Assembly (NCBI GenBank): GCA_035939775.1
Contig: DASZFO010000052.1
Location: 1 to 35,095, forward strand
Direction: 5' to 3'
DNA: 35,095 nucleotides
DNA from: Pirellulales bacterium
GTDB lineage: Bacteria; Planctomycetota; Planctomycetia; Pirellulales; DATAWG01
Within the stretch, counting starts at the first letter, position 1, and each line of letters starts with the position of its first letter. The translations under genes and the position numbers were made by a program. Positions 3,185 through 35,095 of this stretch are shown piece by piece. Under the pieces are notes generated by a model. It did no database searches, was not told the DNA's origin, and worked only from the letters and a program-made list of their open reading frames with translations.

Positions 3185-3705
3185 TCTGTGAGAACGAAAC
3201 GACCAGAATCTAGTAGTCGTCCCGCAGGATGCCTCTTTCATCCTCGAAGGCACGGCCGCACCAGTCGTCGTATCTCACTTGTGAGAAGTGACTTGTGCCA
3301 AGTTCATCGGAATGATTGAAATCCGCTTAGTTGTGTCCACCACTATGCCGGATTCAATCTTTCGCTGAACTTCATCGCAGTATTCTTATTCCCTCAAACC
3401 GTCATTCGGCTGGCGGAGTTCGGCGCGGCGGTCGATCCAACCGAAGCGTCCGGGAGGAAGACCTCAACCTGCTTCGGTGTTGCGGACCGCCGCGTCCAAT
3501 GAAACCTCGTTTCGCGACCTCGGTGGTTTCGACCGACGCGCCGAATTGCCGGGAAAACCCACCCTCGGGCGTGAACACCGACGTGATCAGAGGCAGCAGC
3601 GTAATCCGTTCGGGCGATGGGACCGAAACGTTCTGAATTCGGATTGTTAGGCGCGTCGATCGAGCAGATTGACAGGCTACGGAGCCGGGGCCGGCATTGT
3701 TATAC
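3185..3705. other. Gene-poor intergenic stretch
   Basis: I see no convincing gene. A 101-codon open frame at 3331-3636 (+) has a low-complexity Arg/Pro/Ser composition and no family resemblance. A 6-bp hairpin (AGGATG 3226-3231 with CATCCT 3239-3244) sits 42 nt after the DUF697 stop and could help end transcription, though it lacks a T-tract. A single arm resembling the dispersed repeat (CGGTCGATCCAACCGAAGC) starts at 3429, and a fuller degenerate copy follows at 3483-3540. Confidence 0.6.
3483..3540 (+). repeat. Degenerate copy of the 51-bp dispersed repeat
   Basis: The segment GTTTCGCGACCTCGGT followed by CGACCGACGC matches the right half of the element seen nearly intact at 13576 and 21547 (GTTTCGCAACCTCGGT then CGACCGACGC). 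Substitutions fall in the middle of the right hairpin. The left half is only weakly recognisable, as GCGGACCGCCGCGTCC. It lies beside a decayed gene, like two of the other copies. Confidence 0.5.
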
Positions 3706-4669: not shown

Positions 4670-6769
4670 ATGCGCAGGCTGTCAATCAACTTTTTGGCCG
4701 TAGGCACGGCGGCGGGCGGCTTCATGCTTGCGCTTGGAGCCCAAATGGCTTGGGGGCAGGTGCTTAACACAAATGCCGTCGCCAGCGACTCGCCGTCACC
4801 CAACGACCTCAATCAGCCCTTTCTGCTCCCTTCCGTCCCCAGCGACGTGGTGGAATCGATCGACGATTACCGCCGCTATTGCCAGCGCCAATATTGGGAG
4901 AAGGCTTTCGAACAACTGGATAAGTTGAGTTCGGCCAAATCAACCGGCTTGGTGCACGACAAGGATGGCGTGATGATTCCGCCCGCTCTGTTGTTGGCGC
5001 GGTTGATTTTGGACCTGCCCGAGGACGGCAAGAACGCCTTCCGGCTATTTTACGATGCCGATGCCAAAAGTCTGCTGGAACAGGCGCAGGGGAAAGACGA
5101 GGAAGGAAAGCTAGCCAAGGTCGCCACGCAGTTTCTCTTCACGGCCTCCGGCGATCTGGCCGCCGACCGTTGGGGAGATTTGCTGTTTGAGCGCGGTGAT
5201 TTTTCGCGCGCAATCGGCGCCTGGCGCAGCATTTTAAGGAACCATCCGGATAGCGGCATTCCGCAGCCGCAATTGCTGGTAAAGGTTGCCGTCGCCGCGG
5301 CACGCGATGGCCATTGGCCGGAGTTTCAGGAAATCAAACAGCAAATTCACGAGCGTCAGTCGGAGGCCAGCGTGACCGTGGGCGGCCAAAGCGTGCGGGC
5401 CATCGATTATTTGGAAAAGCTGTCCGCGTCTGGCCCAGCCCAAACGACGGCGGTTGGCGCGGCCCAGTCGGCCGCCAAGGTGCGACTGTCGCCCGACGCC
5501 AAGCCACTATGGCAATTCCGCTGGTTCGCACAGATTAATCCCATTTTGGGTAATCGAGAGGGCTTGGCCTTGTACGACCAGAGGTACGGCCGGCAGTTTG
5601 CCTCCAATTTTGTGCCCCCCGTCGCGATCGACGACGCGCGAGTCTACTCGGACTTCGTCGGCTATGACATCGGCATCAATCTGCAGTCCGGAAAGCTTGC
5701 CTGGCGCAGCGGGCGGTTTTACGATCTGATGAAAAACGACAATGGCCAAAACCAAATCAACCAGGGGCGCAATCTGCTGCTGGAACAATCCGGAATCATT
5801 TGCACTAAAGACCGCGTCTGGTCGGTGGCGCACGACACAACCAATCAAAACAACGGCGAAAGCCATTATTACCTGATCGCGCGCGACGTCGCGACCGGCA
5901 AGGAATCGTTCAACAGCAAAACGGCCTCTGGCGTTCGCGATTGGACCATGACCGGCACGCCCATCGCCGACGACAGCCACATTTATTTGGGAGCTTTCAA
6001 GCCGAATCAGCCCAGCGACGTGTATGCCCTCTGCTTGAACGCCGCGGATGGCAAGCTGATGTGGAACGCAAAAATCGGCAGTTACAAAAACGATCCCAGG
6101 CAGCTTTATTACAACGCGACGGTGCGCTCGACCGTGCCGTCGCTGTTGCTGTCGGGCGGGCGGCTGTATTTCGACACGCAGGCCGGCAGTTTCGTGCAAA
6201 TTAACCCGGCCGCCGGCGAGATTGTTTGGGGGCTGAACTATGATTCGGAAATGCCCACCAGCGATCGCGATTACGGCCAAGCGCCCGAGCAATGTACCGT
6301 CAGTGCCCCGATGCTGGCCGGCGGCGTGCTGTATTTCAAGGGAATGCGCTCGCGCCGACTGTATGCGGTCGATCCGAATGGTCCCAAAATTCTGTGGAGG
6401 AGGCCGGTTTCGGTGGGGTCGGTGCTGGTCGGGGTGGATCGCGAACGGATTTATATGGGCGGTGCGGAGATCATGGCCTATGACCTGAAAACGAAGCAAC
6501 TGCTGTGGTCCAAACCGGTGCCAATGGGCACCGGCTGGATTCATCCACTCTTGACCGACGACCGGATTTACGAGTTTACGCCGCGCGGCATTTACGAAAT
6601 CGAAAAAACCACCGGCGAAGTCGTGCAAATATTCCGCGGCATCGATATGGATTCGCTTGGCGGAAGCCTGCTCTTGACGCCGCGCGCGATCGTGGCGGTC
6701 TCGAATTTGGCGATCACCGCGTACCCGCTGGAGAGCACTGACGGCGCCGCGAAAGAGCAATCGGAATAG
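4670..6769 (+). CDS. Secreted PQQ-type beta-propeller protein with TPR-like N-terminal region
   Basis: From ATG 4670 the protein has 699 residues. I chose this start over an in-frame one 165 bp upstream because it is preceded by a GGGGG run and is directly followed by a signal peptide (MRRLSINFLAVG..., cleavage near AWGQ). An all-helical, TPR-like region spans roughly residues 50-260 (AFEQLDKL, SRAIGAWRSILRNHPDSG). The remainder is a PQQ/pyrrolo-quinoline-like propeller with blade motifs such as LQSGKLAWRSG, ADGKLMWNAKIG, PAAGEIVWGLN and LKTKQLLWSKPVP. Such propellers are binding scaffolds, and I see no dehydrogenase active site. It is first in a + strand run of exported proteins and is likely periplasmic. 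Its ligand is unknown. Confidence 0.75.
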   Translation: MRRLSINFLAVGTAAGGFMLALGAQMAWGQVLNTNAVASDSPSPNDLNQPFLLPSVPSDVVESIDDYRRYCQRQYWEKAFEQLDKLSSAKSTGLVHDKDGVMIPPALLLARLILDLPEDGKNAFRLFYDADAKSLLEQAQGKDEEGKLAKVATQFLFTASGDLAADRWGDLLFERGDFSRAIGAWRSILRNHPDSGIPQPQLLVKVAVAAARDGHWPEFQEIKQQIHERQSEASVTVGGQSVRAIDYLEKLSASGPAQTTAVGAAQSAAKVRLSPDAKPLWQFRWFAQINPILGNREGLALYDQRYGRQFASNFVPPVAIDDARVYSDFVGYDIGINLQSGKLAWRSGRFYDLMKNDNGQNQINQGRNLLLEQSGIICTKDRVWSVAHDTTNQNNGESHYYLIARDVATGKESFNSKTASGVRDWTMTGTPIADDSHIYLGAFKPNQPSDVYALCLNAADGKLMWNAKIGSYKNDPRQLYYNATVRSTVPSLLLSGGRLYFDTQAGSFVQINPAAGEIVWGLNYDSEMPTSDRDYGQAPEQCTVSAPMLAGGVLYFKGMRSRRLYAVDPNGPKILWRRPVSVGSVLVGVDRERIYMGGAEIMAYDLKTKQLLWSKPVPMGTGWIHPLLTDDRIYEFTPRGIYEIEKTTGEVVQIFRGIDMDSLGGSLLLTPRAIVAVSNLAITAYPLESTDGAAKEQSE

Positions 6770-13152: not shown

Positions 13153-13575
13153 CGGGTGGTTGGAGGGGCGCGGCGCCCTTGGCCGCTGCGGCCGCTCGGG
13201 GGGCTCTGAGATCAAATCTCGCTCTCGATCACGACAGCAGAGATACTAGGAATCTACTGACGGCCCGTGTCGCTTGCAAGCGCGCAGTCTTAGTGGTCAG
13301 AGTGGGATAATAAGGGCCGACTTTTGAGCACAAAGGGAGGATTCCTTGCGCCAAAGGGATGCGATATTGGTCCGGACCAGTCCCGTGTTTAAGACCGACG
13401 CGGCAAAATGCCGCTGGCAGGCGCGCTCATGAGGACGCTTCTGTTTGGGTGTCAAGAGCGTGCAATGGGCTGCTTCCATCCTGCTTCGGCCGACACCTCG
13501 ACGCGGCGAGCTTATTCGGCAAATCTACTTCGGTGAAATCGACCGGCTTGATTTCTACTTACGCCTTGGATGCTC

Positions 13576-13626
13576 CGGTCCGCCCGACCGACGTAGTTTC
13601 GCAACCGCGGTCGATCCGACCGACGC
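13576..13626 (+). repeat. 51-bp two-hairpin dispersed repeat, copy 2
   Basis: The left arm CGGTCCGCCCGACCGACG and right arm CGGTCGATCCGACCGACGC are imperfect direct repeats of each other, separated by TAGTTTCGCAACCG. Each arm can also fold on itself (CGGTC/GACCG; CGGTCG/CGACCG). The copy at 21547-21597 differs at one of 51 positions. Here it sits just before a truncated IS66 transposase. Confidence 0.8.
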
Positions 13627-13678
13627 GGCTAATCGTCTCGCATTCCCGAACGCGTTTTCAGGCAGCGATCGTGGCTAA

Positions 13679-21413: not shown

Positions 21414-21546
21414 CGCTTGGCAACTTGCCTCCCAGAGTCGAGCATGTTCGGCTGGCGCAAGTTGACGTTGGCCGGCCCGCTCGTTGTTGGCTGCAGTTCC
21501 GATTTTATTGCTCGCGCTTCGGGCCGTGAACGTCTACAATCTGCGG

Positions 21547-21597
21547 CGGTCCGCCCGACCGACGTAGTTTCGCAACCTCGGTCGATCCGACCGACGC
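21547..21597 (+). repeat. 51-bp two-hairpin dispersed repeat, copy 3
   Basis: This copy is identical to the one at 13576-13626 at 50 of 51 positions (T for G in the spacer). The preceding bases CTGCGG also precede the copy at 33467, where they close a separate hairpin. It reads straight into the orphan fragment that follows, in the same frame. Confidence 0.85.
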
Positions 21598-21601
21598 CGC
21601 G

Positions 21602-21808
21602 AACGCAGCCGGCACGTTTTACAAGAACAGCCTGACGGTCGGCGCTCGCGGCTCACTCGGCAAGCTCATCAACTGGATGATCCGAGCATTCATGTTCGAC
21701 GAGGCCCGCGGCCAAACGTGGATCATCCACAATATCGAAGACGTGGGCAACTTCGAATCGTTCCTGCCGCAGCTCTATGCGGCCGAGGCGACGACGATAA
21801 CTGCGTAA
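21602..21808 (+). pseudogene. Orphan C-terminal coding fragment, family not recognised
   Basis: The frame is open through the upstream repeat and ends at TAA 21806-21808. Beyond the repeat it reads NAAGTFYKNSLTVGARGSLG, KLINWMIRAFMFDEARGQTW and IIHNIEDVGNFESFLPQLY, with balanced composition and no start of its own. The sequence looks like true protein with mixed helix and strand character, and it has no Arg/Pro-rich noise typical of non-coding frames here. I do not recognise the family. It is probably the tail of a gene whose front was replaced or lost at the repeat. Confidence 0.4.
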
Positions 21809-24583: not shown

Positions 24584-24775
24584 TCTTACCAAACCGTTTG
24601 CGAATGTCCAACAAGAATCGCGGGCGGTAGAACGCCGGCGCGCAAATGACCGACCGTCCGACGGACCGTCCCGCGCCATACCCAGCAGTGGCCCAAACCT
24701 GCTTCGGTCCCATCGCCCGAATCGGCCTCGGAGTGTCGGAACGTCCGCGCGCAAGAGCCTGAAGAGGAATCACTC

Positions 24776-24794
24776 CGGTCGATCCGACCGACGC
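24776..24794 (+). repeat. Right arm of the dispersed repeat, copy 4 (half element)
   Basis: CGGTCGATCCGACCGACGC is an exact match to the right arm of the copies at 13576, 21547 and 33467. The left arm is absent. It marks the upstream boundary of the duplicated promoter-leader cassette. Confidence 0.75.
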
Positions 24795-24915
24795 GCACAA
24801 GGTGGTTCGCCATCAGGCCAAAAATCAGTCGATCTATCGGGACTTTGAAGACACCGTGACGTTGAATTGATGGCGGTAGGGGCATCGCGGTTGCCTGCAC
24901 CCCGCAGATTATTCC

Positions 24916-24944
24916 TTGCAATTCGCCGCGCGGGGGGATAGACT
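24916..24944 (+). promoter_or_regulatory. Sigma70-like promoter of the giant TIG gene
   Basis: TTGCAA (24916-24921) and TAGACT (24939-24944) are separated by 17 nt. The same hexamers with the same spacing occur in the second cassette at 33620-33648, although the spacer differs there. Transcription would start near 24951 and give a leader of about 330 nt before ATG 25283. Confidence 0.55.
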
Positions 24945-25282
24945 CAGCACACTGCTCGGCTTTTGGACCCTTGGACGGGCCTCTGCCGTCGCCCCGGTCA
25001 CTGCCGCCCAGAACCGTTTGGTCTGTGGTCGGTGATTCTGTCGCGATCGGGTTTCTCTCGGGCGAAGTCTCCGCGCGATTGCTGTGCGCGGCGGATTTTG
25101 AATCCGTATGGCGCTTGGCGCGATCTCGGTCGGAGTTGCTCGAACTAATCCTGGATAACGTTGCCGCAGCCGCGTATTGCAAAACCGGAGAACGTCATCG
25201 CCGACGCCAGCTCACTCGGTCTTGGTTGCCGGGAAAATGAAAAGAGCGAGCAGCGCGGTCTCTAAAACTTGTGGAGAATCTC

Positions 25283-28200
25283 ATGGCTGGATCGAATCGG
25301 TTGGCGTCTCATCGCGGTAACATTCGGGTGAATGGCCGCCGTCGCAAGGCGCGGCGAAGCGACCGTCAGACGCGGTTATCCGTCGAGCGATTAGAAGATC
25401 GCACGATGCTCACGATCGTCTTTCCGCTCAATTCTGGGGCTGAGACTCATTACAATGCTAACCCTTTTCCCCACGGTGCCTTGCAGAACCCCCAAGTGAA
25501 CCTCATTTTCGCTGGGAATTGGACTACATACCAGGCAAATGAAGGAGAGGCGTCTACGTACCTGGCAGATGAAGCCGCAATGAGAAACGCCGTGCAGTCG
25601 ATCGTGCAAGGGCCCTATTTGACCGGATTGGAGCAATATGGCGCCAGTGGGACGGCCCAGATGGGCGCGGTTTGGTCTGATCCTTCGCAGACGCTGCCCA
25701 ACCCAACCGTTGCCAACGCAGGTAATCTGCAGGATTACCTACAGAACTCCATCACACATTATAACACGACCCCGCCCTCAGTCGACCAGGAGCATGCACC
25801 CATTTACGCGGTCGTCTTGGATCCGACCGATACCGGTACTAGTGGGTCTTCCGGAGGATTCAACGCTCCGGGCAGCTACACGGTCAACCCCGGTGTTCTG
25901 GGCTCGAGCGTGCCGATCAACATGATCGAAGTCGGGGCGTACGAAAGCGGCGGGCAAGTGGATATGAACAAGTTCGGCCAGTATTTCTCTCACGAATTGG
26001 CCGAACGGGTCGTCGACGACCATCAGATGTTTAATTCACCGTACGTCAATTCTGACATATTCCACTCACAACAAGTCGCTGACGGCGAGCAAAACGCCAA
26101 CGAGTATTCTTACCGGCTAAATGGTGCGCTGGTCCAGGCCTACTGGTCGGACGCGGACCAGGCCGCGATTGTGCCGGACGTCCCTTCGCCTGTGGCAAAT
26201 TTTGTCCTCACACCTACTTACTCACTTAACCCGAACACGTATGGGTTTCAGAGCAAATACGACTTAACGGTCACGTCCAGCCTTCATGCCGTCTCATTCA
26301 GTTCGGGCCCCGGCGGCGTTTCGGTAATCGTCGACGGGGAGACCGCCACATTCGGCCTCAGCGATGACCCCTTGAATAGCATTACGGTCAACGGAGCCTC
26401 TCAATTGTATGTCAACGACTCGAGCGACGCAAATCCCAGCGCGATCACTGTCGGTAACATACAGGGAAAACCCGGATGGGGCTACGTTCGCGGCGTGCTT
26501 CCGGTCGACGTCGATTTTTCCTACGCCACCACGTCATTGCTGGAGAGTGGCACCAGCCAGCTCAACGGCAATGTCGTAAATGTGCAGGAAACCGGCACGC
26601 AAACCAATATCATTTGCGACCCGCAGCATACGACCTCGATCAACATTGGAGACAGCACGAGCGTTCAAAGTATCCAGGGCGCGGTCAGTGTATCAAGCTC
26701 GGGATTTCCTCCCTTGGGAGGACCGTCGCCCATAACGATCACGCTTAACGATTCCAGTGATCCCTCGTCCCACACGTTCTATGTCGAGAACGATGCGGCG
26801 ACTCCCGGCTGGGGCGACGTTCGAAGTCTCGCCCCCGCGCAGATCAGCTACCAATACGAATTCACCGCCAGTCTCACGATTATCACCGGCTCGGCCAGCG
26901 GCGGCATCGCGAACGTCTTGGAAACGGGGGTCCCCACAAACATCAACGGTCAGAGCGGAGTGGCATCGACCGTCCAGATCGGCGACAATAGCGGCGTCCG
27001 GAACATTGTGGGCCAGCTAACCATCAGTGGCCCGACGAACTTGCTTGGCCCCAACCCTGCCGCAACGATCATCATCGACGACACGAACGATCTACACGCG
27101 CGCACAATCCACGTGGAAGACTCGACCACTCCGGGAGCCACGGGTGTCGGCGAGGTGGCGGGTATGGCCCCGGCCAATATCTACTTCCAGTACTGGAACA
27201 CGGTCAGCCTGACGATCAATACCGGTCTGGCCAACAACAATGTCGTTGACGTCTTGCAAACCGGCGTAACCACCAACCTGAACACCGTCAATGGGTCTAC
27301 CGTCAATATCGGATATGCCGCGAACGGAGCGCAAGGCCTCCTCAGCGATTTGAACATTGCGAGCCCCGGCATGAGTTTGGTGCGATACGCCACCATCAAC
27401 GTCGACGACACAGGCGACACCTCAGCGCGCAGTGTCACCCTAGCGGACCCATACGCATCGAGCGACCCCGGTGAGGCCAACGCCAGTTCTATCAGCGGTC
27501 TGGCCCCGGGAACTATCAACTACTTCGGCTTGTACACGGCCAGCCTGTCGATCGTCACCGACGCGATCGCCGCAAACTCAATCAATGTGCTTGAAAATAA
27601 CGTTCCGACGTATCTAGTCGGTGGTGCCCTCACATACGTCTATCTTGGCGACGGCACCACCGGCGCCCAGAGCATCTTCGGCAATTTGTACATTTCTAGC
27701 TCGGAGAGCGGCACCCCGGACTCCGGCAACATGTTCATTTCAGTCAACGACCTGGCCGATGGAACGGCCCGCACGGCCACGGTTTCCACCTATTATCCTT
27801 TCAAACGACTTCTCTCGGGCTTGACCATCTTTGATGATCCCTGGGGCTCGATGAGCGGGCTGTTACCGTCTCCGGCCACCATCAACTATGAATATCTGGA
27901 TACGTCCAGTGTGCTGATCGACGGCAACGCTGCCGACCAGAAGGTCAACCCTCCTGGCGCCACGCCCGTCTACCTCAATGCGTTCCCGGTCGTCACCAGC
28001 GTTAGTCCCTCAACCGGATCGCTCAATGGAGGAACCGTTGTGACGATCCTTGGCACCTTCCTGGACCTCCCCGGCCGGTTTGTCGATTTCGGCCATAAAC
28101 CCGGGCACATCATCAGTGACACGCCCACCGAGATTCAAGTCGTCGCGCCGGCAGCGACCGCGGCCGGCACGGTGGACGTGAGAGTCGGGAATGTCGCCGG

Positions 28201-31200
28201 CAAGTCAGCGACATCGGCGGCCGATAAGTTCACCTACGTCGTCCCGCCGGTCGTCACCTCCATCGCTCCCGGTGCCGGTCCGCTAGGGGGCGGAAACACG
28301 GTGTTCATCTTTGGCACGGACTTAAACGGCGCGACGGCGGTGGACTTCGGGCAGAATCCAGGCACAATCCTCGCGGTCTTCCAAACCGATCCCCCTGCCG
28401 ACCTCTGGGAAATGATTGCCATCGCCCCCGCGGGCGCCCAAGGCACGGTGGATGTGACGGTGACGACGGGAGGCGGCCCGTCGGCCACGTCGTCGGCCGA
28501 CGTTTACGCTTACTTCGCGGCACCCGTTTTCGGCCACATGAGACCGTCCTCGGGGCCGACGACGGGCGGCACTGTGGTGATGATCAGTGGCGCGAGTCTG
28601 GAATCCGTCACCGAGGTCGATTTTGGCCAAACCGCCGTCACTTTTCCTAATTTCCAAAGGCAATTCAACGCGATCCGGGTCACCAGTCCAATGGGTGCCG
28701 CCGGCACTGTGCATGTGACGCTAAAATCGGCGGGCGGCACGACCGCGACGTCGGCGGCCGACCAGTTCACCTACATCGCCGCGCCTGTCTTGATCGACTA
28801 CAGCGGGTTCCCTTTTGCTTTGACCCCGAATTTTGGGCCGTACGAAGGGGGCACCACAGTCACGATCAACGGTGCGAATCTAGCCAATGCCACGAAAGTG
28901 AATTTCGGGGCGATTGCGGGCACGATTGTCAGCGACACGGCCACGCAGATCGTTGCCATCAGCCCGGCGCAGCCCTTGGGCAGCATTGTCGACGTGACCG
29001 TGACCACCGCGGGGGGCACGTCGGACCTGTTGTACGGCGACCTGTTCCAATACACGCATGAGCCGCCTTATGTTTACGGCGTAAGTCCGCCGTCAGGCGA
29101 CGTGGCGGGCGGGACAACGGTGACGATCACCGGACTGAACCTGCTGGGCGCGACGGAGGTGGATTTCGGCAGCGTCCTCGGCGGTCCCAAGGCCACGAGC
29201 TTTACCATCAACTCGCCGACACAGATCACGGCCACCAGCCCGGCGGAAACCGCCGGCACCGTGGACGTGACTGTGGTCACGCCGGGCGAACGGTCGGCTA
29301 TTTCGGCGGCAGATCATTTTACGTATACGTCGAGCGCCGTCCCGACCGTCTCCAGCCTGAGCCCATCGTCGGGCTTGGTGGCGGGCGGGACCACCGTCAC
29401 CATCACGGGGACGAACCTGACCGGCGCCACGGCGGTCGACTTCGGCTCGACCGCAGGCACGATTGTCCCCGGCACGGATACAGGCACGCAAATCGTAGCC
29501 ACAAGCCCGGCTGGCGCCGCCGGCGCCGGCGCGGTCGACGTGACGGTGGTGACGCTCAACGGGACGTCGGCCACTTCGCCGGCCGACCAGTTCACTTACC
29601 AAGTGCCCGGCCCCGTCGTCTCCTTAATAAACCCAGCGTCGGGAGCTACGTCGGGTGGCACCATCGTGACCATCAGCGGTTCGAATTTGTCGGGCGCGAC
29701 GGCGGTGAGTTTCGGCGGCACCCCGGCGACTAGCTTCACGGTCAATGCGAATGGAACGATTACCGCCACCAGCCCGGCGGGAACCACTGGCGCGGTGGAC
29801 GTGACGGTCGTGACGGCGGGGGGCACGTCGGCCCTCTCGCCGTACGATCAGTTCCACTACGGCGCCGCGCCGACGATATCAGCCCTCATTGACGGCGGCA
29901 GCCTGATTCACAATCTGGGCCCGAGCAACACCCGCGGTTTCGGGCTCTACATTTTTGGCGGGAATCTGACCGGCGCCACGGAAGTGGATTTCGGCGCCGT
30001 GGCAGGCACAATTATCGACGACCGAGGAGCAGCAGAGGGGTCTATCTATGTCACGACCCCGTCCGAAGGCCCTGGCACGGTCGACGTGAGGGTCGTTACG
30101 CCGAGCGGCACGTCAGCGATTACCCCGGCCGACCAATTCACGTTTACCGCTGGGCCCTTCGTCACGAATGCGACATCGCATTTCATCGACGCTGGCCATG
30201 GCTTCTTTGGCGCAGACGGACCGCTGGCGGGTGGCACGCCGGTGCTCATTCAGGGCTACCATTTGAGCGATGTGACCGCGGTGAATTTCGGCAATACCCC
30301 GGCCGCCAGTTTTACGTATGACAGCTATTACGCGACGATCGTCGCCGTCAGCCCGCCGGGCGCTGCCGGCACGGTGAGCGTGACGGTGACTTCGCCGGAA
30401 GGGACCTCCACGGTCGCGCCGGCTCTAGATTTGTTCACCTACGTGCCGGCCCCGACCGTTTCCGGCATCAGTCCCGCGTCGGGTCCCTTGGCTGGCGGCA
30501 ATAGCGTTGTGATTACTGGCACGAATTTGCTCGGCGCCACGGTGTATTTCGGCGGCCGCCCACTTACGAATTTCTTGGACTATTCTGATACTGACACCAG
30601 TATTCTAGTCGATGCCCCGGCGGGAGCATCTTTGGGCACGGTGGACGTGACCGTGGTAACTGATGGGGGCACGTCGCCGACGCCGTCGGCCGACCAATAC
30701 ACCTACCTGACGCCGCCCGTGCTCTCTGGATTGAGTACGTCGAATGGCGCGATTGCGGGCGGCACGACGGTGACGATCAGCGGCACTGCCTTGGCCGGCG
30801 CAACCGCCGTGGATTTCGGGGGCGTCGCGGGCACGATTATCCCCGGCACGAATACAGACGCTCAGATCATAGTCACCAGCCCCGCTGGTGCTGCCGGCAC
30901 CGTCGACGTGACCGTGACGGCTCTCAACGGCACGTCGGCCATTTCATCGGCCGATCAGTTCACCTACGAAGGGCCACCCAGTATTAGTACCCAGGACACG
31001 AACTCGGGCCCTGTGAAGGGAGGCACGTTGGTGACGCTGACCGGCGCCAGCCTGGCAAACGCCACGGCAGTGGATTTCGGCGCCAACCCCGGCACGATTT
31101 TCAGCGACACGAATGGCCAAATCGTCGTCCTCAGTCCCGAGGCGACCGCGGATGCTGCTGGCACGGTCGGCGTGACCGTGATGACTCAGCATGGCACGTC

Positions 31201-33370
31201 GCCTTCCGGCCAGTTCGCGTTCACGTACGTGCTGCCCCCCGCCGTCACCGGGATTTCTCAATCTTCCGGTCCCGCGGCGGGTGGGACGTTGGTCACCATT
31301 TCCGGCGCAAATCTGTCGGGCGCGACGGCGGTCGATTTTGGCGGCACCCCAGCGACCAGTTTCATACGCGACGGCGACGGCCAGATCAGGGCCTTCAGCC
31401 CGGCGGGCGCCGGCAGCACCGTGGATGTGACGGTGGTTACGGTGGGCGGCACGTCGGCTACTTCGTCGGTCGACCAGTTCACCTACGTGGCTGCGCCTCA
31501 CGTCTCGGCAATCAGTCCGGTGGCCGGTCCGACCTCAGGCGGCACACAAGTCACCATAACTGGCACGGATTTGGCCGGCGCTTCGCGGGTGGACTTCAGT
31601 GACGGTTTCGGCGATGACCGTGTCGGCACGATTGTCAGCGATACGAGCGGCCAGATTTTGGTCTCCAGTCCGTGGTTCTTCGGTTTTGCGGGTACCTTCG
31701 ACGTGACGGTGACGACGATTGGTGGCACGTCGGCCACGTCCGCGGCCGACCAATTCACCTACGTGGACGCGCCGAGCGTCTCGGGCGTCAGCCCCGGCTT
31801 GGGGAACACCTTAGGCAGCAACATCGTGACGATCAATGGCGCAAATCTAGGGGGCGCCACGGCGGTGGACTTCGGCCAGCACGCGGGCACGATCCTCTAC
31901 GATTCGGCCAATCAGATTCAGGTGGTCAGCCCCGCCGGCACCGCCGGTTTGGTCGACGTGACGGTGGTTGCGCCGGGCGGCACGTCGCCCACCTCATCGG
32001 CCGACCGGTTCCTTTACGTCGGTGCGCCGCTGGCTGTGGCCGATAGTTACACGGTAACCCCGAACACGACGCTGACGGTTGCCGCCGCCGGCGTGTTGGC
32101 CAACGATACGGATCCGCAACAATCACCGCTGACCGCGGAGCTGTTGGCCAATCCGTTGCACGGCGCCCTATCGTTTAACGGCGACGGCTCGTTTACGTAT
32201 ACTCCCGACAACGGATACGTCGGCGTGGATGGTTTCGTCTACCAGGCCGACAACGGAATCTTCGCCTCCGCGCCAACGACGGTTTCGCTGGCGATTGGGA
32301 CGCTGACGGTGACCACCACCGCCGATAGCGGGCCCGGATCGTTGCGCCAAGCGATTTTGGATGCCAATGGCAAGCCGGGCCTCCCACATATAGTCCAGTT
32401 CGAGCTTCCGGCCGCGCCGCAAACGATCAATTTGCTTACTCCCTTGCCGGCCGCGACTGATCCCTTGACCGTCTCGCTCGATGCAACGCAGAACGTGACG
32501 GTCGCCCTATCGTCGGGCAGCACTTGGAATGACAACAACTCGCTGACCGTGACCGGCGCGGGAACGCTCACCTTGAGGGCGGGCATCGAGGGCCCGGGAA
32601 ACCTGACGGTCGATGCCGGCAGCAGCTTGACGGCAAACCACATCGTTCAGGGCGCCTTGGTGATCGGCGGCACCGCGGACGCCCCCGCGATGTTGACCAT
32701 CGCCGCGTCGGATTCTTCAGGCAATCCGCTGATTTCCGCGGCCGTAGCATCTTCGAGTAATAGCTCTATTTCGGCCCTGAGCAACAACGTTGCGGGTAAT
32801 GCCGGCACTGAGGCGACCCTTGCCGAACGCCTAGCAGCGATTCGAGCCCGCCGCTTGGCGCAGCAACTTGCAGCGAGTCCGGTCTCGACAGGGGCCAATG
32901 ATGCTTCGTCCGGAATTGCGCCTCCGCCGGTTGTCGTTTCCACGTTAGTCCCGACATCGGCAGCAATCCAAGAGGTCATTTCGACAGCGGCGGGCGTGAG
33001 TCCCATGATTTTCGTCCACGCGATGGTCCCCGTTGATGTAAATGCCAAATCGGCCGCCATCTCTACCGTGGTCAGTGGCAGTTTAGGCGCGCCGGTCGGT
33101 GAGAGTTCTTTTTCGATTCCCCTGGCCGATCCGATCGTCGCAACATCATCCGTCACGAGTCAGACGGGATCCGGCACAGTTCAAGGCGCGGCAGCCACGC
33201 GCAAGAGACTCGATGCGGATGCCGTTGCCGCGGCGTTCGGTTCGGACAATTGGGAATGGCTCGGTTCGGATCCGGTCGCGGGACCGACCTACTGCTCGAT
33301 GGGCAATGTGGGCGGCCTCCTCTTGGGAGATGATTTGCTGGAAGCAATCGCCAAGAAATGGGGCAATTAA
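25283..33370 (+). CDS. Giant secreted protein: LEPR-XLL-like N-terminus, zincin-like domain, 15 IPT/TIG repeats
   Basis: The protein has 2695 residues. ATG 25283 has GGAG 6 nt upstream; an in-frame GTG 12 nt earlier overlaps that site and is rejected. In order: a basic N-terminus ending in the planctomycete LEPR-XLL-like ERLEDRTMLT (~38-47). Then a domain (~50-320) with HELAE at 237-241 and a closing NEYSYRLNGALVQAYWS, resembling putative zincin-like peptidases. Next are five ~112-residue repeats (~375-895), then 15 IPT/TIG domains (~901-2250) with GGTxVTIxGxxLxGATxVDFG cores. A cadherin-like/Big_9 domain (~2251-2340, VLANDTDPQ, GDGSFTYTPDNGYVG) follows. A beta-helix-type segment (TADSGPGSLRQAILDAN) and a Ser/Ala-rich tail complete it. 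It is likely a surface adhesin or matrix protein. Confidence 0.85.
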   Translation: MAGSNRLASHRGNIRVNGRRRKARRSDRQTRLSVERLEDRTMLTIVFPLNSGAETHYNANPFPHGALQNPQVNLIFAGNWTTYQANEGEASTYLADEAAMRNAVQSIVQGPYLTGLEQYGASGTAQMGAVWSDPSQTLPNPTVANAGNLQDYLQNSITHYNTTPPSVDQEHAPIYAVVLDPTDTGTSGSSGGFNAPGSYTVNPGVLGSSVPINMIEVGAYESGGQVDMNKFGQYFSHELAERVVDDHQMFNSPYVNSDIFHSQQVADGEQNANEYSYRLNGALVQAYWSDADQAAIVPDVPSPVANFVLTPTYSLNPNTYGFQSKYDLTVTSSLHAVSFSSGPGGVSVIVDGETATFGLSDDPLNSITVNGASQLYVNDSSDANPSAITVGNIQGKPGWGYVRGVLPVDVDFSYATTSLLESGTSQLNGNVVNVQETGTQTNIICDPQHTTSINIGDSTSVQSIQGAVSVSSSGFPPLGGPSPITITLNDSSDPSSHTFYVENDAATPGWGDVRSLAPAQISYQYEFTASLTIITGSASGGIANVLETGVPTNINGQSGVASTVQIGDNSGVRNIVGQLTISGPTNLLGPNPAATIIIDDTNDLHARTIHVEDSTTPGATGVGEVAGMAPANIYFQYWNTVSLTINTGLANNNVVDVLQTGVTTNLNTVNGSTVNIGYAANGAQGLLSDLNIASPGMSLVRYATINVDDTGDTSARSVTLADPYASSDPGEANASSISGLAPGTINYFGLYTASLSIVTDAIAANSINVLENNVPTYLVGGALTYVYLGDGTTGAQSIFGNLYISSSESGTPDSGNMFISVNDLADGTARTATVSTYYPFKRLLSGLTIFDDPWGSMSGLLPSPATINYEYLDTSSVLIDGNAADQKVNPPGATPVYLNAFPVVTSVSPSTGSLNGGTVVTILGTFLDLPGRFVDFGHKPGHIISDTPTEIQVVAPAATAAGTVDVRVGNVAGKSATSAADKFTYVVPPVVTSIAPGAGPLGGGNTVFIFGTDLNGATAVDFGQNPGTILAVFQTDPPADLWEMIAIAPAGAQGTVDVTVTTGGGPSATSSADVYAYFAAPVFGHMRPSSGPTTGGTVVMISGASLESVTEVDFGQTAVTFPNFQRQFNAIRVTSPMGAAGTVHVTLKSAGGTTATSAADQFTYIAAPVLIDYSGFPFALTPNFGPYEGGTTVTINGANLANATKVNFGAIAGTIVSDTATQIVAISPAQPLGSIVDVTVTTAGGTSDLLYGDLFQYTHEPPYVYGVSPPSGDVAGGTTVTITGLNLLGATEVDFGSVLGGPKATSFTINSPTQITATSPAETAGTVDVTVVTPGERSAISAADHFTYTSSAVPTVSSLSPSSGLVAGGTTVTITGTNLTGATAVDFGSTAGTIVPGTDTGTQIVATSPAGAAGAGAVDVTVVTLNGTSATSPADQFTYQVPGPVVSLINPASGATSGGTIVTISGSNLSGATAVSFGGTPATSFTVNANGTITATSPAGTTGAVDVTVVTAGGTSALSPYDQFHYGAAPTISALIDGGSLIHNLGPSNTRGFGLYIFGGNLTGATEVDFGAVAGTIIDDRGAAEGSIYVTTPSEGPGTVDVRVVTPSGTSAITPADQFTFTAGPFVTNATSHFIDAGHGFFGADGPLAGGTPVLIQGYHLSDVTAVNFGNTPAASFTYDSYYATIVAVSPPGAAGTVSVTVTSPEGTSTVAPALDLFTYVPAPTVSGISPASGPLAGGNSVVITGTNLLGATVYFGGRPLTNFLDYSDTDTSILVDAPAGASLGTVDVTVVTDGGTSPTPSADQYTYLTPPVLSGLSTSNGAIAGGTTVTISGTALAGATAVDFGGVAGTIIPGTNTDAQIIVTSPAGAAGTVDVTVTALNGTSAISSADQFTYEGPPSISTQDTNSGPVKGGTLVTLTGASLANATAVDFGANPGTIFSDTNGQIVVLSPEATADAAGTVGVTVMTQHGTSPSGQFAFTYVLPPAVTGISQSSGPAAGGTLVTISGANLSGATAVDFGGTPATSFIRDGDGQIRAFSPAGAGSTVDVTVVTVGGTSATSSVDQFTYVAAPHVSAISPVAGPTSGGTQVTITGTDLAGASRVDFSDGFGDDRVGTIVSDTSGQILVSSPWFFGFAGTFDVTVTTIGGTSATSAADQFTYVDAPSVSGVSPGLGNTLGSNIVTINGANLGGATAVDFGQHAGTILYDSANQIQVVSPAGTAGLVDVTVVAPGGTSPTSSADRFLYVGAPLAVADSYTVTPNTTLTVAAAGVLANDTDPQQSPLTAELLANPLHGALSFNGDGSFTYTPDNGYVGVDGFVYQADNGIFASAPTTVSLAIGTLTVTTTADSGPGSLRQAILDANGKPGLPHIVQFELPAAPQTINLLTPLPAATDPLTVSLDATQNVTVALSSGSTWNDNNSLTVTGAGTLTLRAGIEGPGNLTVDAGSSLTANHIVQGALVIGGTADAPAMLTIAASDSSGNPLISAAVASSSNSSISALSNNVAGNAGTEATLAERLAAIRARRLAQQLAASPVSTGANDASSGIAPPPVVVSTLVPTSAAIQEVISTAAGVSPMIFVHAMVPVDVNAKSAAISTVVSGSLGAPVGESSFSIPLADPIVATSSVTSQTGSGTVQGAAATRKRLDADAVAAAFGSDNWEWLGSDPVAGPTYCSMGNVGGLLLGDDLLEAIAKKWGN
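26380..27960 (+). repeat. Five ~112-residue internal repeats
   Basis: The cores LYVNDSSDANPSAITV, ITLNDSSDPSSHTFYV, IIIDDTNDLHARTIHV, INVDDTGDTSARSVTL and ISVNDLADGTARTATV recur every ~330-340 bp. Each is followed by a G.V.GL.PA.I.Y.Y segment and a (N/D)V(L/Q)ETG-type strand. The pattern is known from other planctomycete giant proteins. The repeats are diverged at DNA level, so this is old duplication. Confidence 0.7.
27985..32030 (+). repeat. Array of 15 IPT/TIG domain repeats
   Basis: Each unit is ~270 bp and encodes ~90 residues: a PxVxxxxPxxGPxxGGTxVTI start, a LxGATAVDFG strand, an (A/S)PAGxAGTVDVTV turn and a GGTSATSxADQFTY end. Units 8 and 9 have longer first loops. DNA-level similarity is highest at the unit ends, where the segment encoding ADQFTY recurs almost unchanged, so homologous recombination between units would be easy. 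Confidence 0.85.
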
Positions 33371-33447
33371 GAACAGAATGGAGGAGCCGAGCGGACGGGA
33401 AACCGCTTTACTCTGGCCCCACCTCGATCCGCGGAACTGCCTCACGT

Positions 33448-33466
33448 CCGCAGGCCTTGCCTGCGG
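33448..33466. repeat. 8-bp hairpin abutting the dispersed repeat
   Basis: CCGCAGGC (33448-33455) and GCCTGCGG (33459-33466) are exact reverse complements around CTT. The hairpin ends one base before the 50-bp dispersed repeat at 33467. It lies 77 bp after the giant gene's stop, so it may also help transcription end, though there is no T-tract. Confidence 0.5.
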
Positions 33467-33516
33467 CGGTCCGCCCGACCGACGTTGGCAAAAACTTCGG
33501 TCGATCCGACCGACGC
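33467..33516 (+). repeat. Two-hairpin dispersed repeat, copy 5
   Basis: Both arms (CGGTCCGCCCGACCGACG and CGGTCGATCCGACCGACGC) match copies 2 and 3 exactly. The spacer between them differs in sequence (TTGGCAAAAACTT) and is one base shorter. Conservation of the arms with a changed spacer suggests the arms, or their hairpins, are the functional part. Confidence 0.85.
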
Positions 33517-34114
33517 GCGCAAGGTGGTTCGCCGTCACTCCAAAAATCAACTGCGACGTTGAATTGATGGCGGCAGGCGCATCGCGTTGCCCGCTTGCCC
33601 GCACCCCGCAGATTACTCCTTGCAATTTACCGCGCGGGGGGATAGACTCAGCACACTGCTCGGCTCTTAGACCCCTGGACGGGCCTCTGCCGTTGCCCCG
33701 GTCACTGCCGCCCAGAACCGTTTGGTCTGTGGTCGGTGATTCTTTCGTGATTGGGTTTCTTGCGCGAATTCTCCTCGCGATCGCGGTGCGCGGCGTATCG
33801 CAAATCTGCTCGGCTCTTGCCGCGATCTCGGTCGGAGTTGCTCAAACAAACCCTATGGAACGCCGCCGCACGCGCGTATTGCAAAACCGGAGAACGTCAG
33901 CGCCGACGCCAGCTCACTCGGTCTTCGTTGCCGGGAAAATCGCAAGAGCGAGCAGCGCGGTCTCTAAAACTTGTGGAGAATCTCATGGCTGGATCGAATC
34001 GGTTGGCGTCTCATCGCGGTAACATTCGGGCGAATGGCCGCCGTCGCAAGGCGCGGGGCGGCGATCGTCAGACGCGGTTGTCCGTCGAGCGATTGGAACA
34101 GCGAACGCTGTTGA
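33498..34114 (+). repeat. Promoter-leader-LEPR cassette, copy 2
   Basis: This is the second copy of the block at 24776-25414, about 617 bp, beginning at the right arm of the dispersed repeat. It contains the same promoter hexamers, the identical leader hairpin region, the identical segment TCTAAAACTTGTGGAGAATC before ATG 33985, and the N-terminal codons through ERLEQRTLLT. Similarity to copy 1 ends right after that motif. Confidence 0.85.
33620..33648 (+). promoter_or_regulatory. Sigma70-like promoter of the Asp-box propeller gene
   Basis: TTGCAA (33620-33625) and TAGACT (33643-33648) have 17-nt spacing, the same as upstream of the first giant gene. The start would be near 33655, giving a leader of about 330 nt. 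Confidence 0.55.
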
Positions 34115-35095
34115 CCGCCAACTTTCTTCCGGGCGTGCCCGTTTGGCAGGCCCAGGGGCCGGCGCCCATCACAGGAGTGACTTACGCGACTCCCGATACG
34201 AGCGTCGGCGCCGTAGAAAGCATTCTTCCCGTGCCCACGGGCTCGGTGACTTACAATGTCCTGGGCTATTCTGTCACCGAGACGGTCTACACAATCTACG
34301 CCGGCACCGTCAACGGAGGCGTGTGGGAGGCAGACAATGTTACCGCCAGTACGTTGAACGCGATCAACTGGAGGCCGTTGAGCGATAACGAGCCTTCCCT
34401 CGGCGTCGCTTCGATGGCCTACGATCCACGACTCAAAACACTTTGGGTAGGAACCGGCTCTGTGAGCAGCGCCTATCGCCAAGGCGGTCCCGATGTCGGT
34501 CTTCTCAAGAGTACCGACAGCGGAACGACATGGACGCAACTGGGGACCGGTTTGGCTGGACAGCGCATCGTGACGGTCTTGCCGACCGCGAATTATGAAG
34601 GCGGACAGCAAGTGGTTTTCGCCGCGTCTTTGGACGGAGGCGGCATTCTGCGGAGCAATGACGGCGGCAAAAACTTTAACGCAGTGACCAAAGTTAGCTA
34701 CCTCTTCGGGCAACCAGCGGGAACGTTGGCGGGCACTGCCACCGACATAGTCCAAGATCCAAACAACGCGAATCGCTTCTATGCCGCGCTAGCGGGGCAG
34801 GGCGTTTTTGAGAGCGACGATGATGGTTTGCACTGGGGATGGATTGATAACGGAATACCGCAGATGACCCAGGCTGAAGGTACGAAACTGGCTGCGGTCT
34901 ACGACGGAACCACTCACCAAACGAATCTGTACGCGGTCACCGAAAAAGGCGGGAACGTGACCGGGGCCTGGATCACTCATCCGGTCGGGAACTACAGTCT
35001 CACCAATCAACCGCAATGGAGCGCCATCGGGACCGTGCCGGAGTCGAAGCCAGGCGACCCGACGACCGCCCCGCAGGCGGACGTCGGCTACGGGC
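33985..35095 (+). CDS. Secreted Asp-box (BNR/sortilin-like) propeller protein, 3' end cut by window
   Basis: The frame is open from ATG 33985 to the window edge, 370 codons, with no stop. The first ~44 residues match the preceding giant protein (MAGSNRLASHRGNIRANG, ERLEQRTLLT), the LEPR-XLL-like export region of planctomycetes. The body is unrelated: a beta-propeller with Asp-box motifs STDSGTTWTQLG, RSNDGGKNFNAV and ESDDDGLHWGWI, and inter-motif strands such as ASMAYDPRLKTLWVGTGSV. These resemble BNR/sortilin-type and photosystem II assembly factor-like propellers, which bind proteins or glycans. Catalytic sialidase residues cannot be judged from this part. GGAG lies 6 nt before the start. 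Full length is likely far greater than what is seen. Confidence 0.8.
   Translation, partial: MAGSNRLASHRGNIRANGRRRKARGGDRQTRLSVERLEQRTLLTANFLPGVPVWQAQGPAPITGVTYATPDTSVGAVESILPVPTGSVTYNVLGYSVTETVYTIYAGTVNGGVWEADNVTASTLNAINWRPLSDNEPSLGVASMAYDPRLKTLWVGTGSVSSAYRQGGPDVGLLKSTDSGTTWTQLGTGLAGQRIVTVLPTANYEGGQQVVFAASLDGGGILRSNDGGKNFNAVTKVSYLFGQPAGTLAGTATDIVQDPNNANRFYAALAGQGVFESDDDGLHWGWIDNGIPQMTQAEGTKLAAVYDGTTHQTNLYAVTEKGGNVTGAWITHPVGNYSLTNQPQWSAIGTVPESKPGDPTTAPQADVGYG

Follow-up and report, generated by a model that had tools for sequence, protein, structure and literature searches.

The window, that is the whole 35,095-nucleotide stretch analysed, is contig C52 (DASZFO010000052.1) of a Pirellulales genome of 6.39 Mb in 384 contigs, the sole member of its genus in the collection. 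It carries two giant-protein genes on the forward strand, each with a copy of a duplicated block at its front end. Protein 1 has 2695 aa from the ATG at 25283, and 14 IPT/TIG domains were found in its body by Pfam. Protein 2 could be read for 370 aa before the contig end; on the basis of a weak sub-threshold Pfam signal, its body looks like an Asp-box/sortilin-type propeller. The features are listed below.

24772-24796: half of a dispersed repeat, bordering block copy 1 on its upstream side
24916-24944, plus strand: predicted sigma70-like promoter of copy 1 (TTGCAA, 17 nt, TAGACT), backed by the TTGC/TANNNT spacing across copies
24947-25051, plus strand: conserved leader core, copy 1
24992-25051, plus strand: predicted hairpin of about 60 nt in the core, copy 1
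25052-25282, plus strand: remaining leader of copy 1, with the ribosome binding site GGAG at 25273-25276
25283-25414, plus strand: arginine-rich N-terminus of 44 codons with LEDRTMLT at its end (LEPR-XLL / Planc_extracel-like), copy 1
25415-33370, plus strand: body of giant protein 1, with 14 IPT/TIG domains and one Ig/cadherin-like domain
33454-33517: two-part dispersed repeat, bordering block copy 2 on its upstream side
33620-33648, plus strand: predicted promoter of copy 2 (TTGCAA, 17 nt, TAGACT), backed by the same spacing
33651-33755, plus strand: conserved leader core, copy 2, with the predicted hairpin at 33696-33755
33756-33984, plus strand: remaining leader and ribosome binding site, copy 2
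33985-34116, plus strand: 44-codon N-terminus ending in LEQRTLLT, copy 2
34117-35094, plus strand: body of protein 2, Asp-box/sortilin-like propeller by sub-threshold matches, truncated by the contig end

The two block copies (24772-25408 and 33494-34110) were recovered as one BLASTN alignment of 644 columns, with 545 identical positions (84.6%, E=0) and 34 gap positions, 25 of which correspond to a single deletion; around the start codon they are nearly identical. The original prediction had placed them at 24776-25414 and 33498-34114, which is correct within a few bases, and had set the junctions at a dispersed repeat and at the LEPR motif. Both junctions were confirmed, the upstream edge of similarity falling within the repeat and the downstream edge in LEPR-like codons (LEDRTMLT and LEQRTLLT). 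The end of the similarity at this motif and the unrelatedness of the bodies beyond it also hold: the two proteins are alike only at residues 1-47 (85% identity), and protein comparison of one body with the other gave no match. The repeat CGGTCGATCCGACCGACGC occurs at six sites in the window, four of them exact, against 0.07 expected. In its two-part form (GGTCCGCCCGACCGACGT ... CGGTCGATCCGACCGACGC), with a short palindrome, the dispersed repeat lies between genes at 3429-3545, 13571-13632, 21542-21603, 24772-24796 and 33454-33517, and its minus strand at 33497-33514 is terminator-like.

In both proteins the motif occupies residues 37-44, with 12-13 R/K before and within it, at the position and in the form observed in homologues; each protein is a large exported-type one beginning with a basic stretch followed by a short LEPXXLL-like motif. 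This N-terminal motif is a known planctomycete cell-surface signal, Pfam PF07595 (PMC8567305, PMC10952558); the family, Planc_extracel, is a planctomycete-specific cell surface signal peptide (PMC8567305), and planctomycetes are known to have genes for giant surface proteins (PMC5177795). As in Planc_extracel/LEPR-XLL proteins, an Arg-rich N-terminus ending in LEXRXXLT, with no hydrophobic core, precedes giant secreted-type proteins. Unlike them, the present N-termini gave only sub-threshold Pfam scores (12.0 bits for protein 2, 14.5 bits for a paralogue on contig C280 and none for protein 1, the threshold being 25.5 bits), and the motif family is silent on promoter or leader. Because the scores are below the curated cut-off, the N-termini are termed Planc_extracel-like and not members of the family.

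A genome-wide search with the block revealed two full copies only. A third copy of the leader and N-terminus, with a partial leader, was found on contig C91 before protein 3, which is paralogous to protein 1 over its full length (67% across about 2500 aa); this leader has lost more than 200 nt and has kept the core 5' part and the ribosome binding site. On contig C359, the core and promoter alone precede a 2253-aa protein whose signal peptide looks ordinary and which contains PATR repeats and ends in a PEP-CTERM tail. With a sequence model built from four copies, three further ones were detected in two other families (G034 C88:26789 and G034 C184:66176, called G034a and G034b, and G036 C350:1776), and structured models agree with it on the core copies. 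The core is consequently present at seven places, in three genomes of three families. The element recurring before different proteins is the promoter with a leader core of about 105 nt; it includes neither the 44-codon N-terminus nor the repeat arm.

When 1.1-kb regions were aligned between genomes, only the core could be aligned, together with the promoter in some pairs, mostly at 75-85% identity. Relative to the core, TTGC lies at -31 and TANNNT at -8 in five of the seven copies (1, 2, C359, G034b and G036), which represent four contexts, and from this constant spacing the core should begin close to the RNA 5' end. A strict consensus promoter scan called neither the copy 1 nor the copy 2 promoter. 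A sigma54 -24/-12 reading of GGCAC...GC was rejected, the spacing being one base short by eye. The promoter and leader proposed at the outset are backed by comparison with the other copies and are still predictions.

All seven core copies lie on the sense strand upstream of exported-type protein genes, transcription of the core being predicted, and the downstream proteins are not homologous over their length. The claim of a shared promoter-leader before unrelated exported proteins is thereby extended to C359, G034 and G036. LEPR-XLL N-termini are found in proteins 1 to 3 and signal-peptide-like starts in the C359, G034a and G036 proteins. The G034b frame has a signal-peptide-like start, then an apparent frameshift into a beta-repeat protein, which is either an assembly error or a pseudogene; at this locus (G034 C184, L049 about 5380-5420), a 50-aa frame is followed by a 615-aa frame starting within it. 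VPEP-type tails end the C359, G034a and G036 proteins, and the G034a protein has a dockerin domain too. These three proteins resemble the PEP-CTERM/exosortase surface proteins in their tails, whereas proteins 1 and 3 have none and only the C359 tail passed the NCBIfam cut-off; the published PEP-CTERM/exosortase system concerns sorting through a C-terminal signal and does not involve a leader (PMC1569441).

Comparison of proteins 1 (25283-33370) and 3 (L024 from 5390) gave 50-64% at the amino acid level in the N-terminal half and 77-79% in the TIG and C-terminal half, where synonymous-site similarity was likewise higher, as if the latter half had been homogenised. Proteins 1 (residues 2435-2482) and 3 also share with the C359 PATR protein (L119 12111-18872, residues 2093-2141) a segment of about 48 aa close to the C-terminus, with 65-67% identity; the C359 protein is otherwise unrelated to them.

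Folding of the seven copies with RNAalifold gave one long interrupted stem. Single-sequence folding of the core 3' half gave one hairpin of about 60 nt, which is the minimum-energy fold in all six complete copies; the two folds are mutually exclusive. The hairpin consists of an outer helix CCCGGUCAC/GYGAUCGGG, an inner hairpin GCCGCCAG...CGGU and a 3' bulge. In the six complete copies its z-scores were -2.0 to -3.4, and -1.4 to -3.3 with wider limits; all are somewhat flattering values since the limits were picked after seeing the folds. In the C91 copy, an internal deletion removes most of the hairpin and the folding is different. The nearly invariant core 5' half (CUGCUCGGCUCUUAGACC) could instead pair with the hairpin strand through CUG/CAG, CGGC/GCCG and GACC/GGUC. 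Covariation of either fold in the seven copies was not above shuffles, whole-core single-sequence folding energies were no better than shuffles, and an alternative middle fold had no clear advantage. With this sparse covariation, the hairpin is retained as a candidate structure.

No Rfam family was detected at gathering level in the window, nor any up to E=5 in the copy 1 leader; the C359 leader gave only a chance-level match to an lncRNA. Like the cis-regulatory leader RNAs of Rfam, the core is predicted to be a structured 5' leader, is better conserved than its flanks and stands before genes that have one broad function in common; unlike them, it matched no family at the gathering threshold. 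A 2010 RNA survey lists Rhodopirellula-1 as an uncertain cis-regulatory RNA candidate of Planctomycetes and Proteobacteria (PMC2864571), a standing it has in common with the core as a candidate leader.

The repeats, the boundaries, the copies elsewhere, the constant promoter spacing and the common predicted fold were directly observed. The working unit proposed here, which we hold to be somewhat probable, would be a sigma70-type promoter with a transcribed leader core of about 105 nt controlling large exported-protein genes, copy 2 having arisen by 5'-end exchange. The core would begin at or near the predicted transcription start, its 3' half would fold into the hairpin and its 5' half could pair with the same hairpin strand instead. 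The elongation or translation of these costly proteins would then be tuned at the RNA level, either through refolding or through a factor that binds the leader. Against a leader RNA stand the covariation, which does not exceed that of shuffles, the whole-core folding energies, which are no better than those of shuffles, the C91 copy, in which the hairpin is mostly lost, the absence of an Rfam match and the small number of carrier genomes (three only).

The conserved DNA just downstream of the promoter could be a protein-binding site instead, the core acting as an extended promoter or operator for a transcription factor common to the surface-protein genes, with no RNA role. Its constant spacing from the adjoining promoter and stem sequences that are invariant, not covarying, are compatible with such a DNA element. 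However, about 105 bases is long for an operator, and the identical predicted hairpin in six complete copies, even those differing in sequence, argues against it; a purely DNA-level role is considered a possible but unlikely alternative. Within the leader-RNA interpretation, a more specific and rather speculative proposal is that of a new class of switching leader RNA in some Pirellulales, in which GGUCACNGCCGCCAG would have two alternative pairing partners, CUGCUCGGC...GACC upstream and ...GAUCGGG downstream, and the leader would respond to a signal that sets giant surface-protein output.

The origin of the protein 2 5' end was approached through relatives of its body. Propeller-body homologues were found in 31 of 296 sampled genomes of the order, the present one included, and in about 22 of the 30 loci examined by reading, an own LEPR-XLL-like N-terminus lies close before the propeller. 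Among them is the C280 propeller paralogue of the same genome, with its own LEPR-XLL N-terminus (MRRNSSHNRP...IEQLESRTMLTVNLTGVPNW). The propeller body has therefore not been newly brought to export, contrary to the original prediction. The leaders of the protein 2 relatives and of the C280 paralogue differ from the block leader, and no convincing leader core was found upstream of the propeller-homologue loci tested. The N-terminus closest to that of protein 2 is that of its neighbour protein 1: 22 of 24 four-fold sites agree between the two, compared with 16 of 23 between proteins 2 and 3 and 16 of 22 between proteins 1 and 3. The G051 homologue of protein 1 has another, different LEPR-XLL N-terminus.

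Since most protein 2 relatives and the C280 paralogue have LEPR-XLL N-termini of their own, the simplest account of copy 2 is that two genes which both belonged to this type beforehand exchanged 5' ends locally; the direction and mechanism of this exchange are inferred. The downstream propeller gene would have had its 5' end (promoter, leader and 44-codon export N-terminus) replaced by that of the upstream neighbour, probably via recombination or gene conversion with limits at the dispersed repeat and at the LEPR codons common to both genes, and this proposed replacement would be the reason why the window has two block copies. The block in its entirety, repeat arm and LEPR motif included, had been regarded at first as a mobile or recombining expression-and-export cassette that brings new bodies under one signal, as its two full copies before unrelated bodies and its edges at the repeat and the LEPR motif could suggest. 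This is now improbable: the genome contains no further full copy, the C91 N-terminus fronts a paralogue of protein 1 and not a new body, the protein 2 relatives already possess LEPR-XLL N-termini, and the repeat arm was not found beside the core at other sites. A promoter-leader of unrelated surface-protein genes, together with one local exchange of 5' ends, appears to be the better-supported unit from these sequence comparisons.

The core is carried by three of 396 sampled genomes of the order and is absent from a congener of G034. It was not found in 397 genomes of the class beyond the present one, in a further draw around G036 or in plasmids; because stricter filters were applied in scoring the large samples, copies that have diverged may have escaped detection. 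A scan of about 85,000 genomes with a strict pattern gave 22 matches, of which only a Pirellulales contig equal to G036 scored as real, a result which, given the strictness of the pattern, does not prove rarity elsewhere. Two pattern matches on viral contigs were unsupported by the model, and two loci with weak model matches, L042 on C159 and L051 in G068, look like coding sequence on reading and were rejected. Very improbably, this patchy distribution reflects recent shared ancestry only, the core having been passed from genome to genome by gene transfer and having no function of its own, because flanks and proteins are unalignable while the core stays mostly 75-85% identical, and its position, strand and promoter spacing are constant.

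In the literature found, no shared leader has been linked to planctomycete giant surface proteins, and no control element was described for planctomycete giant and PEP-CTERM-type surface proteins. The core appears to be a leader, so far undescribed, through which cell-surface proteins are controlled, and not an export cassette that moves about freely. A promoter-plus-leader common to unrelated surface proteins would define a co-regulated set and a testable control element, and the proposed exchange, with its limit at the LEPR codons, illustrates how a giant gene could acquire the regulation and export end of its neighbour while its body remains unchanged.
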